Assembly: GCF_013044125.1 (NCBI RefSeq)
Contig: NZ_JABEVC010000135.1
Coordinates: 1-38,840 of the forward strand
DNA: 38,840 bases
Direction: 5' to 3'
Origin: Acidocella sp.
GTDB lineage: Bacteria > Pseudomonadota > Alphaproteobacteria > Acetobacterales > Acetobacteraceae
The notes beneath the pieces were generated by a model that did not search any database, was not told the DNA's origin, and saw only the letters and a list, made by a program, of their open reading frames with translations. Below, piece by piece: positions 6,917 to 35,448 of this stretch; the stretch's first letter is position 1; each line of letters opens with the position of its first letter. A program made the translations under genes and the position numbers.

Positions 6917-7882
6917 TCACGGCTCAGGCAAATGGCAGGCTTCGATTTCCAGCAGAAGGTCAGCCCGGCAAATATCGCCCTGCAAATGAATGCGCTGGCT
7001 ATCTGGGCCAAAGAGCGCTGTGACGGCGCGATCGACCGTCTCGCGGCAGGAGGGATCGCGCAGGTAGGTCTTTACCGCCCAGTCGCCGGGTCCGCCAGCG
7101 CAGCCGGCCACTTTGGTCAATGCGTGCAGATTCGCCATCGTTTCCGCGAGCTGGGCCTCTACATCGCCGCGATGGCGTGTTTCGTGCCCCACTATGCTGG
7201 CTGTCCCCGAGATGAACAGGCTTTGCGCCCCAGCGGGGCCATGCCTGCAAGCGCGTGAAAAGCTCGGGCTGGTGGGGCCGTAGATGGGCGGATAAGCATA
7301 GGCGCTAGTCTGGCGCGGGTTTTCGATGGCTTCAGCCGCCGTGCGCGCGGCGAGAAAGTAGATGACGGATACTCCATGATGTCCTCCCACGCCACTCGCG
7401 GCAGGCGGCACAGGCTGCCGCAGCCTGGCAGTGAAGGCATTCTGGCGCCCGGTATTGAACCGCCGGTAGCGCTCCATCCCTTGTTCATCTTCGGTGATCG
7501 CGGTGAGGTAATTCCAGAACCGGATTGGTTCCCTGAACCCGGCCTGGTCCAGGAAATCAAAAATATAAAGATAAGCGCGTTCAACGGTCTGCTCGAGGGG
7601 GATGGTTCCAGCCTCGTCCAGAACGAGCGCGCCAAACGCTGTCTCCGCGCTGCAGGACCCGCTAACGGGGCCAATTTGAGTATGGGTTGCCGGTGTGCTG
7701 GCTGTCCAGACCTCAAATATTTTGTCGCCGGCTACGGCGGGTTGAAGCGGAGCCGCGATAAAAGGGCAGGCGGGATGCAACCCCGCGGGCCGCGCCGCGC
7801 CGTAACCGGCCACGCCAAGAATATGGTGCGCGCTCTCGGGTGAGAGAAGGTGTGCAAGATCACGCTCGTAATGAACTCTCAA
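6917..7882 (-). CDS. chorismatase / pteridine-dependent deoxygenase-like (XanB2/FkbO/Hyg5 family), putative hydroxybenzoate synthase
   Basis: 'ERAYLYIFDFLDQAGFREPIRFWNYLTAITEDEQGMERYRRFNTGRQNAF' and 'LFISGTASIVGHETRHRGDVEAQLAETMANL'. Conserved homology begins at LRVHYERD; TTG at 7882 is the likely start rather than the ORF start at 8296. Confidence 0.82.
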   Translation of the reverse strand: MRVHYERDLAHLLSPESAHHILGVAGYGAARPAGLHPACPFIAAPLQPAVAGDKIFEVWTASTPATHTQIGPVSGSCSAETAFGALVLDEAGTIPLEQTVERAYLYIFDFLDQAGFREPIRFWNYLTAITEDEQGMERYRRFNTGRQNAFTARLRQPVPPAASGVGGHHGVSVIYFLAARTAAEAIENPRQTSAYAYPPIYGPTSPSFSRACRHGPAGAQSLFISGTASIVGHETRHRGDVEAQLAETMANLHALTKVAGCAGGPGDWAVKTYLRDPSCRETVDRAVTALFGPDSQRIHLQGDICRADLLLEIEACHLPEP

Positions 7883-28006: not shown

Positions 28007-28020
28007 TTGATTCAGATCAA
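28007..28020. promoter_or_regulatory. perfect FNR/Anr/FixK-type site TTGAT-TCAG-ATCAA
   Basis: Exact TTGATN4ATCAA consensus about 70 bp upstream of the ubiT start. Confidence 0.85.
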
Positions 28021-28089
28021 AGACATTCTTTCCATCTTCAGGTCAGTGTCCCGCGCTTGATCGCCAGTTGATGGCACAAACAGGACTGC

Positions 28090-28761
28090 ATGAGTATGGA
28101 TGAAAGTCGACTTCCCGTTCCTCTGGCGCGTGTGGCGTTGCGTGTGATACCTGAAACTGTGTTAAATCGCCTGACGTATCTTTTGATACGCAGGATGCAG
28201 AAGATTCATCCAGGCTTGTTTCAGAATCTTGCCCGCCTGGATGCGGCCACCGTCTGCATAGAACCCTCTGATCTGCCGTACCGCTTTGTTTTGAAGTTTG
28301 GCCAAGGCCCAACATCCTTAAGAACAGCGGCCCGCGCGGGATGTTCCTGCGATGCTGCGGTCAAAGGAAAATTGGAATCATTGCTCAATTTGCTCGAGGG
28401 CCGCATTGACAGCGACATGATGTTTTTCTCACGTGAGATCATCATCACCGGCGATACCGCCGTTGTCGTCGCCTTGCGTAATACGCTTGACCGTGAAGAA
28501 ATCCGCCTTCTGGACGATATTTCCGCCATGTGCGGGCCGGTTTCAAATCCCGCGCGCAAGGTGATTGTCAGGGTCAATAAATTCATGGAACATATCAAAA
28601 CATCCATGAAAAATGCGCATGAGCGGCGGCATTCGCGTGATGCCAATGAGGCCGCCGCGAAGCTTGAATGTGCCAGACTCCAGGAAGAGATTAAGGCACT
28701 TAAATTCCGGCTCGCGAAATTCGAAGTGCGCGGGAAAAGAATGGATGCATCCGCCCTATGA
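28090..28761 (+). CDS. ubiT: O2-independent ubiquinone biosynthesis accessory factor UbiT (SCP2 domain)
   Basis: SCP2-like 'LPYRFVLKFGQGPTSLRTAARAGCSCDAAVKGKLESLLNLLEGRIDSDMMFFSREIIITGDTAVVVALRNTLD', directly upstream of ubiU/ubiV. Confidence 0.88.
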   Translation: MSMDESRLPVPLARVALRVIPETVLNRLTYLLIRRMQKIHPGLFQNLARLDAATVCIEPSDLPYRFVLKFGQGPTSLRTAARAGCSCDAAVKGKLESLLNLLEGRIDSDMMFFSREIIITGDTAVVVALRNTLDREEIRLLDDISAMCGPVSNPARKVIVRVNKFMEHIKTSMKNAHERRHSRDANEAAAKLECARLQEEIKALKFRLAKFEVRGKRMDASAL

Positions 28762-29753
28762 GATCTTCGTATCTTGAACTTGTCTGCCCCGCGGGAACCC
28801 CTGCGGCCTTGCACGCAGCTGTCGCCGCCGGCGCGGATACCGTCTATTGCGGGTTCCGTGATTGCACGAACGCGCGCAATTATCCGGGGCTCAACTTTGA
28901 TATGGATGAGATGACAGCCGGCGTCGCCTATGCGCATGAGCATGGGTGCAAGGTTCTTGTCACCATCAACACATTTCCACGCGCCGGTCAGGAAAAATCC
29001 TGGCATCAGGCCGTCGACAACGCTGCCATGGCTGGCGCGGACGCAATTATTCTGGCTGATATCGGACTGCTGGATTACGCCACACGCCGGCATCCGGGCC
29101 TGCGGCGGCATCTTTCCGTCCAGGCATCCGCCGCAAACGCCTTGTCGATCCTTTTCTATCGCGAGCATTTTGATATCAAGCGCGTCGTGCTGCCGCGAGT
29201 CTTATCGATTGAGGATGTCGCATCCCTGATTCAGCAGACAGAAATGGAGACCGAGGTGTTTGCCTTTGGCAGCGTCGGTCCCATGTCGGAAGGCCGCTGT
29301 TTTCTTTCATCCTACATGACAGGTCTCTCACCGACTCATGAAGGCGTCTGCGCGCCGGCAAGTCATGTCGTGTATCAGGATGATAATCACTGCATCAAAT
29401 CCTGCCTCGGCAGTGTCACGCTGAATAAATTTTCAAAGGATGAACCCGCCGCCTACCCCACGCCGTGCAAAGGGCGCTATGAGGCAAATGGCCGTACCTC
29501 TTATTTGTTCGAGGAACCGATTGGCTTGAATGCGGTCGATATTCTTCCTCAACTCAAGGCGGCCGGCGTCACGGCTCTGAAAATCGAAGGGCGGCAGCGC
29601 AGCCGTGCCTATGTTTCAAAAGTTGTAGGCACTTTCCGCAAAGCGCTTGATGATCTGGCCGCGGGTACGCAAATACACGCCTCTGGTGATCTGAAAACAA
29701 TGGCAGAGGGTGGCCGTGAGACATCTGGCGCCTACAAGAAAGGCTGGCGCTAG
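28758..29753 (+). CDS. ubiU: O2-independent ubiquinone hydroxylase subunit UbiU (U32 family)
   Basis: 'ELVCPAGTPAALHAAVAAGADTVYCGFRDCTNARNYPGLNF', 'EGRCFLSSYMTG...EGVCAP...', 'PCKGRYEANGRTSYLFEEPIGLN', 'ALKIEGRQRSRAYVSKV'; retained Cys residues. Confidence 0.94.
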   Translation: MRSSYLELVCPAGTPAALHAAVAAGADTVYCGFRDCTNARNYPGLNFDMDEMTAGVAYAHEHGCKVLVTINTFPRAGQEKSWHQAVDNAAMAGADAIILADIGLLDYATRRHPGLRRHLSVQASAANALSILFYREHFDIKRVVLPRVLSIEDVASLIQQTEMETEVFAFGSVGPMSEGRCFLSSYMTGLSPTHEGVCAPASHVVYQDDNHCIKSCLGSVTLNKFSKDEPAAYPTPCKGRYEANGRTSYLFEEPIGLNAVDILPQLKAAGVTALKIEGRQRSRAYVSKVVGTFRKALDDLAAGTQIHASGDLKTMAEGGRETSGAYKKGWR

Positions 29754-29755
29754 CC

Positions 29756-30685
29756 ATGATCGAAAATCAAACTACGCAGAATTTGCCAGCGGGGAAAATT
29801 ACCATCGGTCCACTTTTTTTTCACTGGACCGCGGAAAAACGCCGCGATTTTTATTTCCGTATCGCTGATGAAGCCGCCATCGACTGCGTCTATCTCGGTG
29901 AGGTTGTCTGTTCGAAACGGGAGATATTTTTCAAGGAGTTTCTTCCCGTCGTTTCGGAGAGACTTCAAAGGGCCGGCAAGGAAGTTATCGTCTCCACACT
30001 GGCACTCGTCACATCAAAACGCGAGATGAGCACGGTTTCAGCTTACGCCGATGCGGGCTTCATGGTCGAAGCCAATGACGTTGCCAGCCTGCAGGCATTG
30101 CATGGAAGGCCCCATGTCATCGGCCCTTTCATCAATGTGTTCAATGAAAGCACGCGTGACTACGTTATAAAGAACAACGCCACGCGCATTGTTCTGCCGG
30201 TTGAAATGGCCGCAGATTCAATTGGCCGGTTGGCGGGTGGCGGCGAGGCCGCCGAAATCGAAGTCATGGTTTTTGGGCGCCAGCCACTCTCCGTCGCCAT
30301 GCGCTGTTATCATGCCCGCGCGCATGAGCTTAACAAGGATAGCTGTCAATTTGTTTGCGGCTTGGATCAGGACGGGTTGCAGACAAATACCGTCGATCAG
30401 CAACCAATCTTGGCGGTCAATGGCACGCAGACAATGTCCCACGGCTATGTCGTGCTTCTGCAGGAGTTGGCCAAACTTCAGAACATGGGCGTAAGCCATT
30501 TCCGCCTCTCTCCCCAGGATGTGGATATGGCGCGGGTTTCCCACTTGTACCGTAATGTTTTGGACCGGAAGTGCGATCCAGCGGAAGCTTTGGAAACGCT
30601 GAAGGCCATTACAGATACCGTACCCTTTATAAATGGCTTCTGGCATGGCTCCGAAGGGTTTGCCTGGGTCGAAAACCGTGCATAG
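29756..30685 (+). CDS. ubiV: O2-independent ubiquinone hydroxylase subunit UbiV (U32 family)
   Basis: 'ITIGPLFFHWTAEKRRDFYFRIADEAAIDCVYLGEVVCSKRE', 'RCYHARAHELNKDSCQFVCGLDQDGL' Cys cluster; follows ubiU by 2 nt. Confidence 0.94.
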   Translation: MIENQTTQNLPAGKITIGPLFFHWTAEKRRDFYFRIADEAAIDCVYLGEVVCSKREIFFKEFLPVVSERLQRAGKEVIVSTLALVTSKREMSTVSAYADAGFMVEANDVASLQALHGRPHVIGPFINVFNESTRDYVIKNNATRIVLPVEMAADSIGRLAGGGEAAEIEVMVFGRQPLSVAMRCYHARAHELNKDSCQFVCGLDQDGLQTNTVDQQPILAVNGTQTMSHGYVVLLQELAKLQNMGVSHFRLSPQDVDMARVSHLYRNVLDRKCDPAEALETLKAITDTVPFINGFWHGSEGFAWVENRA

Positions 30686-30695
30686 GATAAAGAAT

Positions 30696-31844
30696 ATGGC
30701 TTCTAATCGAGGAATTTCATGGAAGACTTTTACGGGAGATTCCGGAACTGAAGAGCATTTCATTTCGATTCAGGCGCCTGAAGATCTCAGTTTCAAGGAA
30801 CAGGTCGCCTTCGTCAACGCAAATTATTGTGACATGCAAAGGCAGCTTTCCCTTTCGCCAGACACCGCGGTATTTCGCAGGATATTTCTGAGCGACGTAT
30901 TGAACCAGGCGAGCTTCATCAGAGAAAGCGACCTTCTCGACGATATGGTCGCCATCTCAATCGTACAGCAACCGCCGCTCCAAGGATCAAAAATCGCGCT
31001 GCTGGCCTATCATGTTAAAGCCCTGCAGCCGTTCACAAAGCGCCGCCTTTCCTCAAAGCACCTGCTGGTCGAAAAAGATGGGCAACGTCATCTTTGGAGC
31101 ACACGTCTTTGTACTTGTGATCACGAGACATCAAACTCCTCTGAGAAACAGACAAAGGCGATTTTTGATGATTTGTCAGCCGTACTCGCCGAGCAGAAAG
31201 CGAACCTGGCGGATCACTGCGTACGGACATGGATTTATATGAAGGACGTCGATGTCTTTTATAAAGGCATGGTCGATAGCCGGCGAGACATATTCTCCAA
31301 ACATGGCTTAACGGCCAATACGCATTACATCGCCAGCACTGGAATTCAAGGCGCCTGTTCCCATAGGTTTGATCTTGTCTCCATGGATGCCTACTCAAAT
31401 CTTGACCTTGTGTCAGGTCAGATATCCTATCTCAACGACTTCGACTATCTATGCCCGACAAAGGATTATAATGTAACCTTTGAACGCGGCACAACGGTCT
31501 CTTACAAAGAGAGACGGCATCATTATATTTCAGGAACGGCCAGCATCGATAAGCAAGGAGATGTTGTGCATCCTGGAGATGTATTGCTCCAGTTGGACCG
31601 TGCTCTGGAAAATACCGATGCCTTGCTTAAATCCGGGGCGGCAACGCTCGATGATATGATGTATCTGCTGGTCTATCTGCGCGATATTGCCGATTTCCAG
31701 GGCGTCAACCGGGTTCTGCGCGCGCGCTTTCCAGATCTGCCAATTTTTATTGTTCAGGGGGCTGTTTGCCGCCCGGCTTGGCTCATCGAAATTGAGGGGG
31801 TCGCGATTACAAAAAATCATAATCCTTTGCTGCCATCCTTTTAA
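30696..31844 (+). CDS. double YjgF/Rid-fold protein, distantly chorismatase (XanB2/FkbO)-like
   Basis: C-term 'HHYISGTASIDKQGDVVHPGDVLLQLDRALENTDALLKSGAATLDDMMYLLVYLRDIADFQGVNRVLRARF' is YjgF/Rid-like; shares the (F/Y)ISGTASI motif and layout with the chorismatase at 6917-7882. ATG at 30696. Confidence 0.75.
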   Translation: MASNRGISWKTFTGDSGTEEHFISIQAPEDLSFKEQVAFVNANYCDMQRQLSLSPDTAVFRRIFLSDVLNQASFIRESDLLDDMVAISIVQQPPLQGSKIALLAYHVKALQPFTKRRLSSKHLLVEKDGQRHLWSTRLCTCDHETSNSSEKQTKAIFDDLSAVLAEQKANLADHCVRTWIYMKDVDVFYKGMVDSRRDIFSKHGLTANTHYIASTGIQGACSHRFDLVSMDAYSNLDLVSGQISYLNDFDYLCPTKDYNVTFERGTTVSYKERRHHYISGTASIDKQGDVVHPGDVLLQLDRALENTDALLKSGAATLDDMMYLLVYLRDIADFQGVNRVLRARFPDLPIFIVQGAVCRPAWLIEIEGVAITKNHNPLLPSF

Positions 31845-31868
31845 TCGGCCAGAAACAAGGTCCCGAAA

Positions 31869-32555
31869 ATGTCAGACGATGCTCCTTTCCTCATGCTTGA
31901 CGAAGCTGCCATAAAAGCTGCCGAACTCCGGCGCGATCCTTACGATTATACCTTTATTGAAAATGCCATCAGCACCGATCATAAGGCGGAGGTTCTTGCC
32001 GACGTGCCGGTTATTCCGGATCGGGGCAGTTATGCACTTGCGAATTTGCGATACGGACAGAAATTCGGGAACTGCATGCAGGATCTTCTGAGCCCTCGTT
32101 TCCGGCGTCTGGTTGAGCAGAAGTTTGATATCGATTTAAGCAACAAGCCCGCCAGCATCGTGATGATGGGAAATACAACCGGGCACTACAATGAGGGATA
32201 TGCACATCCTGATTCGAAACATAAAATCATAACGGTTTTGCTTGGTTTTACTGCAGAATGGCCGCATGAGCGTGGCCGGCTGCGGGTGCTGCGCAGCAAC
32301 GACCGCGATGATTACGCGTTCGAATTTGCCCCAGAATTTGGAAAAATGCTGATGTTCCGCGTCTGCGATCATTCCTGGCACGGATTCCTGCCGCAAAAAG
32401 GCAATAGAATGAGCGTACAACTTTGTTATGTCGATTCAGAATGGTATGTGCATCGTGAAAATATCCGCCATGGTCTGAGCAGCTTCGCTAAATCCATTCC
32501 CGTCGTTCGTCAGATAATTGACTGGATGCCTCGTTCTTTTGGCAATAAGGGCTGA
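31869..32555 (+). CDS. 2OG-Fe(II) oxygenase superfamily-like protein
   Basis: 'YAHPDSKHKIITVLLGF' (HxD) ... 'CDHSWHGFLPQKGNRMSVQLCYV' (distal His, Arg). Confidence 0.75.
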   Translation: MSDDAPFLMLDEAAIKAAELRRDPYDYTFIENAISTDHKAEVLADVPVIPDRGSYALANLRYGQKFGNCMQDLLSPRFRRLVEQKFDIDLSNKPASIVMMGNTTGHYNEGYAHPDSKHKIITVLLGFTAEWPHERGRLRVLRSNDRDDYAFEFAPEFGKMLMFRVCDHSWHGFLPQKGNRMSVQLCYVDSEWYVHRENIRHGLSSFAKSIPVVRQIIDWMPRSFGNKG

Positions 32556-32560
32556 TCTCT

Positions 32561-33232
32561 ATGGCTTATCCCCGTATTCCCACCCTGGATACCATCGTCG
32601 ATCATTTTATCTGCTCGCTGCGTGCCGCACAGCGTAAAGAAGATCATTATCTGCGCTGGGGCCTTACGCATGTATTGCCAGAGTCCCTTTGTACGGCGAT
32701 CCTCGTTCTTCCCATCGTGCCTCCAATGCTGGGCAGCACGGATGGAACACGCAATTCCTACAATGCGAAGCGTACGTTCATTACGCCGGAGCTGCGCGAG
32801 AAATTTCCTGTTTGCAAGCAGTTAACCGAGGCGCTGCAGCATCCCGATGTGGCGCATCAGTTTCAGGAAACATGCGATATTGACGCAAGGGGCACATTTC
32901 TGCGTGTTGAATACATGCAGGATACCGATGGAATGTGGCTGGAGCCGCATCGTGATGTTCCGGAGAAAATATTTTCAATGGTCGTATATCTCTGCACCGG
33001 GCCGGACGCCAAGGATTGGGGCACGGATATATATGACGATCAGAAGAAATGGGTGGGGCGATCATCCGCGGGTTTTAACACGGCAACCATTTTCAAGGCG
33101 GGTCCCAATACCTGGCATGGATTCGAGAAGCGCCCGATCAACGGTGTGCGCCGCTTGATGGAGGTAAATTATGTTAGAGGCTGGAGCGACCGCGAGCAAC
33201 TCGCATTTCCAGACCGGCCGATCTTGCTGTGA
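32561..33232 (+). CDS. 2OG-Fe(II) oxygenase superfamily-like protein (diverged tandem paralog)
   Basis: 'LEPHRDVPEKIFSMVVYLCTG' (HxD) ... 'PNTWHGFEKRPINGVRRLMEVNYV' (distal His, Arg). Confidence 0.75.
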   Translation: MAYPRIPTLDTIVDHFICSLRAAQRKEDHYLRWGLTHVLPESLCTAILVLPIVPPMLGSTDGTRNSYNAKRTFITPELREKFPVCKQLTEALQHPDVAHQFQETCDIDARGTFLRVEYMQDTDGMWLEPHRDVPEKIFSMVVYLCTGPDAKDWGTDIYDDQKKWVGRSSAGFNTATIFKAGPNTWHGFEKRPINGVRRLMEVNYVRGWSDREQLAFPDRPILL

Positions 33233-33265
33233 TTTTTTGTAGGTTGTAACGCCCCGTGACCTTGT

Positions 33266-33295
33266 GCAGAGTAAACGGATAATCGTTTATTCTGC
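33266..33295 (+). terminator. candidate terminator hairpin after the ubi-type operon
   Basis: GCAGAGTAAACG-GATAAT-CGTTTATTCTGC, 12-bp stem with one G-U; followed by CCTAGTTTTGAG. Confidence 0.55.
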
Positions 33296-33465: not shown

Positions 33466-34818
33466 CTACTCGCGGGGGAAAGTCTCAGCGAACCAACTTA
33501 TGAAAGCGTCTGCCGGCATGGGCCAATTGATCAGATACCCTTCGGCAAAATCGCAATTCCAGGCTTGAAGCATCTCCTGTACCGCGAATGTTTCCACTCC
33601 TTCTGCGACCACTTGTATGTCCATCTCATGGGCCATGTGGATCATTGATCTCACCAGTGCCTGGTACCGGAGATTATCGGGCAAAAACTTTATGACGCGC
33701 CTGTCTATTTTAAGAAAATTGGCTGGAATATTCGCCAGCGTCCGGAAACTATCTTTACCGGTCGCAAAATCGTCAATTGAAACATTCACGCCCATTGCAC
33801 GCAGTTCCAGAAGCCGGCTGCGTGCGATCGATGGATTTGCAAAGCTGCGCCGCTCGGAAAATTCAAGTTCCAAAAATTCCGGATTGAATTTGTGAAGTTC
33901 CAACAAGGCAGTGATTCGGCCTGCGAAATCATCCTCCTCAAGATTTTTTGTTGAAATTTTTACGCAAATTTTCACTTTATGATTGTCCGCATGCCATTTC
34001 GCTGCCTGGCTGATTGCGTAGGACAGTACCCAAAATGTCAGATCGCGGATTAACCCGGTTGCCTCGATCAATGGGATAAATTCGTCAGGCGTGATACGCC
34101 CTAACACTGGGTGATGCCAGCGCAGCAATGCCTCCACAGCATCGGCCTTACCGGTACGAAGCGTTACACGCGCTTGGTAGGCGAGTTTGAACTCGCCCGG
34201 CGTGGTCATCGCATTGCTGACGTCGGAGATTAAAGTAAAGGCGCGGCGGTGGTCATTGGCGTGGTCATAGTTGCATTCAGCCCAGCCGGTGGGGGAAGCT
34301 GCCGCAGTCTGTCCCGCCAGATAAGTCGCCTGCAACAGATCCTCTGCCGCGATCGGGCTCTTCATAAGGTCGCACACGCCAATTCCGGCTGCAATGGAAA
34401 TTGGGATGCCCCTGCAAATCAGTGGTTTGGCCAAAGCGTCGTTCAGCAAGGGCCATACAGAGTTCGCTTCGCCGGCAGTCCCAGACCTGTAAATGAAGCC
34501 GATACTCCAAAAGCCAACATGGAAAAAAGACTGATTTTTATGGATGAACAGCAGATCAGCAAGCCGGATGTTCAAAAGGTCATCGGCAAATTTATAGCCG
34601 AAAGTCCTGATGATGTCGTCATAGTGATTGGTATCGGCAATATTGATGACAACGAGAAAAATATGCCCCTCGGGAAGCTTCTCCATTTGCGCGGACACGA
34701 TTTCCCGCAACAGCGATGCGCGCTCAAAAAGTACTTTTGGATTGTCAAGATCAGAACGGACGACATTTTCGTCGCCTAAACCCCCCCCTTGGCGATCGCT
34801 TTGGATTGAGTCTGACAT
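33466..34818 (-). CDS. degenerate GGDEF-EAL domain protein
   Basis: EAL: 'VEALLRWHHPVLGRITPDEFIPLIEATG', 'LELEFSER', 'VSIDDFATGKDSFRTL', 'LKIDRRVI', 'QVVAEGVET'; GGDEF-like N-terminus lacks the signature loop. Confidence 0.9.
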   Translation of the reverse strand: MSDSIQSDRQGGGLGDENVVRSDLDNPKVLFERASLLREIVSAQMEKLPEGHIFLVVINIADTNHYDDIIRTFGYKFADDLLNIRLADLLFIHKNQSFFHVGFWSIGFIYRSGTAGEANSVWPLLNDALAKPLICRGIPISIAAGIGVCDLMKSPIAAEDLLQATYLAGQTAAASPTGWAECNYDHANDHRRAFTLISDVSNAMTTPGEFKLAYQARVTLRTGKADAVEALLRWHHPVLGRITPDEFIPLIEATGLIRDLTFWVLSYAISQAAKWHADNHKVKICVKISTKNLEEDDFAGRITALLELHKFNPEFLELEFSERRSFANPSIARSRLLELRAMGVNVSIDDFATGKDSFRTLANIPANFLKIDRRVIKFLPDNLRYQALVRSMIHMAHEMDIQVVAEGVETFAVQEMLQAWNCDFAEGYLINWPMPADAFISWFAETFPRE

Positions 34819-34977
34819 ATTCACCCCCCTGTCGTCGACCAAGAACAGCGTCGTGAGAATCTCTCTTTAATTGAAAACAACAATAATTAAGTCAACCTAT
34901 AATTGACAAAAAACTAAAAAACAACCAACGTATTTCACGTCTGGTAACGTGATTGTGAAGATAAAGTGATCAAATGT

Positions 34978-35217: not shown

Positions 35218-35448
35218 TCAGGGATGGGCGGATAGATCATGCCCCACCGCCGCAGGACCATATCCGCGGCTCTGGTCCCGGGAGATGATCTCTATAGCCT
35301 GGTAAGCCATGAGCCAGGCTTCAACACTGGCGACTTCCCGGTTTCGCACAACAATCGCGAGCACAACGCATTTCTGATCGCTTCGAGTATTCAGTCTGGT
35401 TGGCCCAAGTATCTCAGCTGATGCTTTCCGGCCGCTTAACGGGCACAT
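35218..35448 (-). pseudogene. possible ISL3-like transposase remnant
   Basis: 'ASVEAWLMAYQAIEIISRDQSRGYGPAAV' resembles the 'LAxWLRxHPGVEIIxRDRSxxYAxGA' segment of ISL3 transposases. Confidence 0.4.

Follow-up and report, generated by a model that had tools for sequence, protein, structure and literature searches.

What do three additional genes do at the end of an operon for oxygen-independent ubiquinone synthesis? The question is raised by a locus in a 38,840-nucleotide (nt) stretch of Acidocella sp. DNA (contig NZ_JABEVC010000135.1, positions 1 to 38,840; hereafter, the window), where six plus-strand open reading frames (ORFs), ubiT-ubiU-ubiV-rid2-ogA-ogB, occupy positions 28090-33232 with a largest gap of 24 nt. 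The names rid2, ogA and ogB are working labels for a two-domain Rid gene and two 2-oxoglutarate (2OG)-Fe(II)-oxygenase-like genes. Our best explanation, held with moderate confidence, is that rid2-ogA-ogB forms a low-oxygen module that moves horizontally and is controlled by FNR; rid2 would encode an enzyme of the chorismatase type, and ogA and ogB micro-oxic oxygenases. The three genes are co-inherited, have FNR boxes of their own and have kept their catalytic residues.

Co-inheritance was assessed in 299 related genomes of the same order, where full-length rid2 was counted and ogA orthologs were accepted at E < 1e-80. The genes rid2, ogA and ubiV were found in 17, 18 and 25 genomes, respectively. 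All 17 rid2 genomes contained ogA, even when the two genes were on separate contigs or over 100 kb from each other (G172, G214, G265, G279), and 16 of them contained ubiV, the exception being G113, which has the trio without ubiV. Fisher tests yielded p-values of 8e-27 for rid2-ogA and 3e-19 for rid2-ubiV over the 299 genomes, with kinship ignored. Presence varies inside genera g1, g28 and g32, mostly in step for both genes. A second anaerobic marker, nrdD, was tried as a proxy for anaerobic life and tracks rid2 less well than ubiV does (8 of the 17 rid2 genomes). In a separate collection of 32 rid2 genomes, some of them incomplete metagenome-assembled genomes and some belonging to species shared with the order sample, ogA was present in 30 and ubiV in 24; the two genomes lacking ogA carry the loci L034 and L044, the latter from Elusimicrobia. 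The trio is rare, as only 2 of 399 genomes in a phylum-wide sample were positive, the window's own included. The trio could also be a mere passenger of anaerobic islands, kept together by common FNR control and having no joint function. This reading fits the plasmids and islands on which the trio is accompanied by several unrelated anaerobic genes, and also the occurrence of ogA-ogB alone behind nrdD-nrdG in G172 and G214, with an FNR box ahead of ogA. However, hitch-hiking does not explain the constant company of rid2 and ogA at a distance in the sampled Acetobacteraceae, and nrdD follows rid2 poorly, so that we consider a passenger role improbable.

The commonest arrangement is rid2 with ogA and ogB adjoining. 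Of the 33 named loci, 8 have ubiTUV genes in the flanks that were retrieved, as do several rid2 loci from Acidiphilium-like genomes. Gene orders are ubiTUV-rid2-ogA-ogB (the window), rid2-ogA-ogB-ubiTUV (L057), ogA-rid2 divergent from ubiTUV (L046) and ubiTUV-rid2-pdxST with ogA-ogB divergent (L060); ORFs in the loci of high-GC relatives were picked by GC-frame score. On three plasmids of Acidiphilium and Acidithiobacillus the order is ubiTUV-rid2-pdxST, with nrdDG close behind in two and on the other side in the third. UbiTUV, PdxST and NrdDG stand in for oxygen-using steps of the synthesis of ubiquinone, pyridoxal phosphate (PLP) and deoxynucleotides, respectively. In a maximum-likelihood phylogeny built from 47 Rid2 proteins, proximity to ubiTUV changes five times, gains and losses counted together, and at least four of these changes are forced by well supported branches. 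An earlier note on this DNA, made from the sequence alone, had named linkage confined to a single genome as an outcome that would refute it; the linkage of ubiTUV with the trio recurs in many genomes. Its proposal that the six genes make up a single system has to be abandoned, the trio being separate and mobile, having its own FNR promoters and ubiTUV as a neighbour at a minority of its loci. The occurrence on plasmids, patchy spread, low GC content and at least four linkage changes show that rid2-ogA-ogB is mobile. The operon has a GC content of 52%, compared with 62% upstream, and was therefore probably acquired by transfer.

The genome family of the window genome, grouped automatically, also includes Acidiphilium-type genomes. 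Just past the operon, the minus strand encodes an EAL-domain protein (33466-34842), and the low-GC stretch (51% GC) reaches approximately position 35400; the EAL-domain gene is perhaps part of the transferred segment. Among neighbour families, ogA/ogB, ubiTUV and anaerobic genes were the only partners to recur from one context to another; beta-propeller proteins and c-type cytochromes are also repeatedly encoded beside rid2, but come from different families. In acidophile loci, a small c-type cytochrome gene near rid2 or ubiTUV is repeatedly adjoined by a gene whose product has a CxxCH motif at its N-terminus (L066 1381-2748, L053 8415-9905, L069 3253-4620); the protein of this kind encoded near the Acidiphilium loci has no Pfam match.

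Control by FNR was examined at 30 stand-alone promoters, i.e., rid2 or ogA promoters without ubiTUV ahead, which were searched within 250 bp. The sequence TTGATNNNNATCAA was perfect in 13 of them and had at most one mismatch in 21, while approximately 0.005 perfect boxes per promoter are expected from the background in the same loci (2e-5 per position); the binomial p-value of this excess is 6e-23, some of the 30 loci being near-copies. No FNR box was found at the Elusimicrobia locus L044 or on the Bacteroidales plasmids. In the window, the perfect site TTGATTCAGATCAA precedes ubiT (Table 1). A single site of this kind is weak evidence; its recurrence, as an identical site in L032, a sister genome, and as equivalent sites in other relatives, carries weight. 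In G172, a distant pair, ogA'/ogB' (about 33% and 42% identity), follows hemN downstream of a perfect box; in G211, this pair has hemN and a gene for an FNR-type regulator in its vicinity, and perfect boxes are also present at the pair in G000, G110, G157 and G269. Given the boxes at both pairs, 2OG pairs of this type seem to belong to the FNR regulon in these bacteria. The ogA'/ogB' pair, FNR-boxed in several genomes and beside hemN in two, was also seen in L093, L078, L079, L094, L095 and L098, and ogB' adjoins electron-transfer-flavoprotein-like genes in L091 and L097.

The rid2 product combines a C-terminal Ribonuc_L-PSP (Rid) domain with weak chorismatase matches. The seven best Foldseek matches of its AlphaFold2 model (predicted local distance difference test score, pLDDT, 85.6) are all chorismatases, nearest 4bps, 5a3k and 5ag3, aligned over the full length with E-values from 3e-18 to 8e-16 and template modelling (TM) scores of 0.68-0.73 by target length (0.71 for the best match, E 3e-18); the next matches are single Rid domains covering one domain only. 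The protein carries the chorismatase-type motifs FxRxT, SGTAS and CRxxxLxE. Residue Glu-334 of the chorismatase Hyg5 is essential, and Gly and Cys at matching places mark the 3-hydroxybenzoate-forming type, CH-II (PMC7170507). A profile alignment places G280, C358 and E365 of Rid2, invariant in 27 relatives, at Hyg5 G240, C327 and E334, while FkbO has Ala at the positions of G240 and C327; thus, the catalytic Glu, one Gly and the Cys of CH-II are matched, and the third CH-II glycine was not placed in the alignment. Rid2 is therefore predicted to fold as a two-domain chorismatase and to retain the catalytic Glu together with the Gly and Cys typical of Hyg5, which bears out the earlier description of a chorismatase-like double-Rid protein. 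The plasmid pACMV3 has a second copy of rid2 next to ogA-ogB (L067 18203-19214), which is split into two fragments in the annotation and seems to be disrupted, while the one that follows ubiV is intact.

The Rid domain also allows a quite improbable reading, which makes Rid2 a tandem Rid protein clearing reactive enamine/imine intermediates of PLP enzymes in anaerobic growth, the proximity of pdxST on three plasmids reflecting PLP protection. The conserved Arg359 of Rid2 does align with the RidA arginine, but Rid2 has two domains and the RidA match extends over the second only, unlike the single-domain RidA proteins. Moreover, the full-length fold matches are exclusively chorismatases, the three motifs are of the chorismatase type, and adjacency to pdxST is limited to one branch.

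The second and third proteins of the trio appear to be 2OG-Fe(II) oxygenases in type, with an intact predicted metal triad and a 2OG-binding Arg, in line with their first description from the window. OgA passes the Pfam threshold of PF13640 (2OG-FeII_Oxy_3; 27 bits) and OgB falls under it. The HxD...H...R residues of both proteins are at least 97% conserved among relatives, and the model of OgA (pLDDT 83) has PasI, PolD and then PHD2 as its nearest folds.

The most substantial rival to a free-standing module is that Rid2 serves as an oxygen-independent, XanB2-like source of 4-hydroxybenzoate (4-HB) for ubiquinone in the absence of UbiC, with OgA and OgB tailoring the ring or tail at low oxygen. 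In the oxygen-independent pathway 4-HB is the precursor (PMC6747719), and XanB2 makes it (PMC5069965). The association of rid2 with ubiV, which is tighter than with nrdD (16 versus 8 of 17 genomes), and the repeated rid2-ubiTUV linkage fit this role. UbiC was not found in 38 of the 40 genomes tested and was missing from all 17 rid2 genomes; a canonical chorismatase is also missing from 15 of the latter, in which rid2 is the sole recognisable gene for a hydroxybenzoate-forming enzyme. UbiC was rejected as a discriminator, being mostly absent with or without rid2, and a canonical chorismatase, present in 3 of 40 related genomes only, was rejected as a general substitute for UbiC. However, at least eight ubiTUV genomes of the order sample lack rid2, UbiC and canonical chorismatase alike, and must therefore have another source of 4-HB, if ubiquinone is made. 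The window itself contains a second, closer chorismatase gene (6917-7882, minus strand; PF21168 1e-29, TIGR04444 194 bits, Hyg5 E 2e-40) with the motifs SGTAS and CRADLLLE. In addition, G113 carries the trio without ubiV, and the matched Rid2 residues are those of the 3-hydroxybenzoate-forming Hyg5 type, the comparison covering Hyg5 and FkbO. Finally, relatives of Rid2 occur in Elusimicrobia and Bacteroidales, with homologs of about 40% identity in Parabacteroides, Phocaeicola and Bacteroides, which to our knowledge make no ubiquinone; the Parabacteroides relative adjoins genes for a porin, an imelysin and a di-haem oxidoreductase. For these reasons, supply of the quinone head group by the double-Rid protein, as first suggested for this locus, is in our opinion rather unlikely. 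Some relatives of rid2 in Bacteroidales and other phyla (L065, L070, L072, L073, L071, L068) have genes for porins, imelysins, di-haem oxidoreductases, c-type cytochromes or beta-propeller proteins as neighbours.

In the reading we prefer, the mobile module became joined to the ubiTUV operon here and was linked to ubiTUV several times elsewhere. Rid2 would act as a chorismatase-type lyase, converting chorismate or a close relative to a hydroxybenzoate-like product with no need for oxygen. OgA and OgB would be oxygen-using tailoring or protein-modifying enzymes that work under micro-oxic conditions. Activation by FNR has already set in there, as E. coli contains UbiUV at 0.1% O2 (PMC10470549). 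Several points weigh against this picture. First, rid2, ogA and ogB have no known activity, and oxygen-requiring enzymes under an anaerobic activator present a tension. Second, Rid2 has only 17-19% identity to the solved chorismatases and misses the curated cut-offs by far (TIGR04444, 43 versus 325 bits; PF21168, 12.5 versus 27 bits), and is therefore called chorismatase-like and not a member of the family. Third, the 299 genomes are related, so that the co-occurrence p-values overstate independence. Fourth, rid2 is found without ogA in Elusimicrobia and without an og neighbour in Bacteroidales; therefore, in those groups the three genes do not make up a single obligate pathway.

A role of the trio in ubiquinone synthesis itself is possible. 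A separate low-oxygen aromatic or redox product seems slightly ahead of head-group supply because of the ubiTUV genomes lacking both rid2 and UbiC, the closer chorismatase in the window genome and the homologs in non-ubiquinone Bacteroidales. Going further, we tentatively suggest that the trio may constitute an undescribed chorismate-started low-oxygen pathway to a new aromatic product or quinone modification, operating from micro-oxic to anoxic conditions, switched by FNR and spread by plasmids.

Table 1. Features of the ubiTUV-rid2-ogA-ogB locus in the window.
Feature	Position	Strand	Evidence
FNR-type site TTGATTCAGATCAA, palindromic	28007..28020	.	Perfect match; 69 nt upstream of ubiT start, centre 76 nt upstream
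ubiT, SCP2-domain accessory factor of O2-independent ubiquinone synthesis	28090..28761	+	NF047962, 71 bits (cut-off 47)
ubiU, U32 Fe-S hydroxylase subunit	28758..29753	+	NF047963, 497 bits (cut-off 440)
ubiV, U32 Fe-S hydroxylase subunit	29756..30685	+	NF047965, 352 bits (cut-off 275)
rid2, chorismatase-like two-domain Rid protein, 382 amino acids	30696..31844	+	Pfam/NCBIfam, predicted fold, aligned residues
ogA, 2OG-Fe(II) oxygenase-type	31869..32555	+	PF13640, 30.9 bits; H113/D115, H171, R180
ogB, 2OG-Fe(II) oxygenase-type	32561..33232	+	PF13640, 21.0 bits, under cut-off; H130/D132, H186, R198
Terminator-like hairpin 3' of ogB	33266..33295	+	13-bp stem, 4-nt loop, then short T run CTAGTTTTGA

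The architecture of the locus is as the earlier note had described it, with six closely spaced same-strand genes, a perfect FNR site ahead and a hairpin behind (Table 1). The ubiT and ubiU genes overlap by 4 nt, ubiV directly follows ubiU at 2 nt, and the remaining gaps are 10 nt (ubiV-rid2), 24 nt (rid2-ogA) and 5 nt (ogA-ogB). UbiT, UbiU and UbiV exceed their NCBIfam equivalog cut-offs, so the identification of an FNR-boxed ubiTUV operon stands. Such control has already been published and is common (PMC11707229, PMC10470549): an FNR site is located upstream of 87% of ubiTUV sets (PMC11707229), and in E. coli FNR activates UbiUV from 0.1% O2 to anoxia (PMC10470549). The description of UbiU as an Fe-S protein has to be qualified. 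In UbiV the cluster motif CXnCX12CX3C is intact (C52, C184, C197, C201). For E. coli UbiU, the cluster ligands C169, C176, C193 and C232 were reported to be strictly conserved (PMC6747719), but the window protein retains three of the four, C181, C198 and C237, with exact spacing, and has Gly174 at the position of Cys169. This Gly is found in many Acetobacteraceae with or without rid2; L119 has Ser, and other relatives keep Cys. As the cysteine loss does not track the presence of rid2, no link between the two is claimed. The gene is named ubiU on its equivalog score, and a full four-ligand cluster is not assumed; judging from the residues, a naturally three-cysteine UbiU could hold an open iron site.

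Co-travellers of ubiTUV are leads to missing parts of oxygen-independent ubiquinone synthesis, for which the oxygen donor of UbiUV was still open in PMC10470549 and the source of 4-HB in UbiC-less bacteria was not identified here. Even if unrelated to ubiquinone, a co-inherited chorismatase-like enzyme and paired 2OG oxygenases under an oxygen-sensing activator would add a new element to the low-oxygen repertoire, and one open to experiment, as the trio is present in cultured Acidiphilium, Azospirillum and Sulfuriferula. No description of rid2-ogA-ogB was found in the literature searched, subscription papers and preprints lying outside the search, and searches on the plasmid islands, FNR-controlled 2OG oxygenases and PDB entries 9ei6/9blq returned nothing relevant. 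Thus, the FNR-boxed ubiTUV operon is known, and the attached trio is new as far as we found.

Compared with the UbiTUV pathway (PMC6747719, PMC11707229, PMC10470549), the window operon has the same ubiT-ubiU-ubiV order and strand, an FNR box and the UbiV cysteine motif, but continues into rid2-ogA-ogB and encodes a UbiU with Gly at the first cluster cysteine. With the chorismatases FkbO, Hyg5 and XanB2 (4bps, 5a3k, 5ag3), Rid2 shares the predicted fold and the equivalents of Hyg5 Glu334, Cys327 and Gly240, as well as the motifs FxRxT and RTWxY of FkbO; it differs in being about 40 residues longer, in its low identity and curated score, and in having anaerobic genes and not polyketide clusters as neighbours. 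OgA shares its predicted fold and HxD...H...R site with PolD and PasI of nucleoside antibiotics and with PHD2-type enzymes (PDB 9blq, 9ei6/9ei7), although identity is about 20% to the former and 10-16% to PHD2, and the og genes are paired under FNR. The plasmid islands of Acidiphilium and Acidithiobacillus (such as pACRY03 and pACMV3) likewise have rid2 directly after ubiV and an FNR box before ubiT; unlike the window, they have pdxST after rid2, together with nrdDG, and carry ogA-ogB apart, on pACMV3 beside the second rid2 copy.

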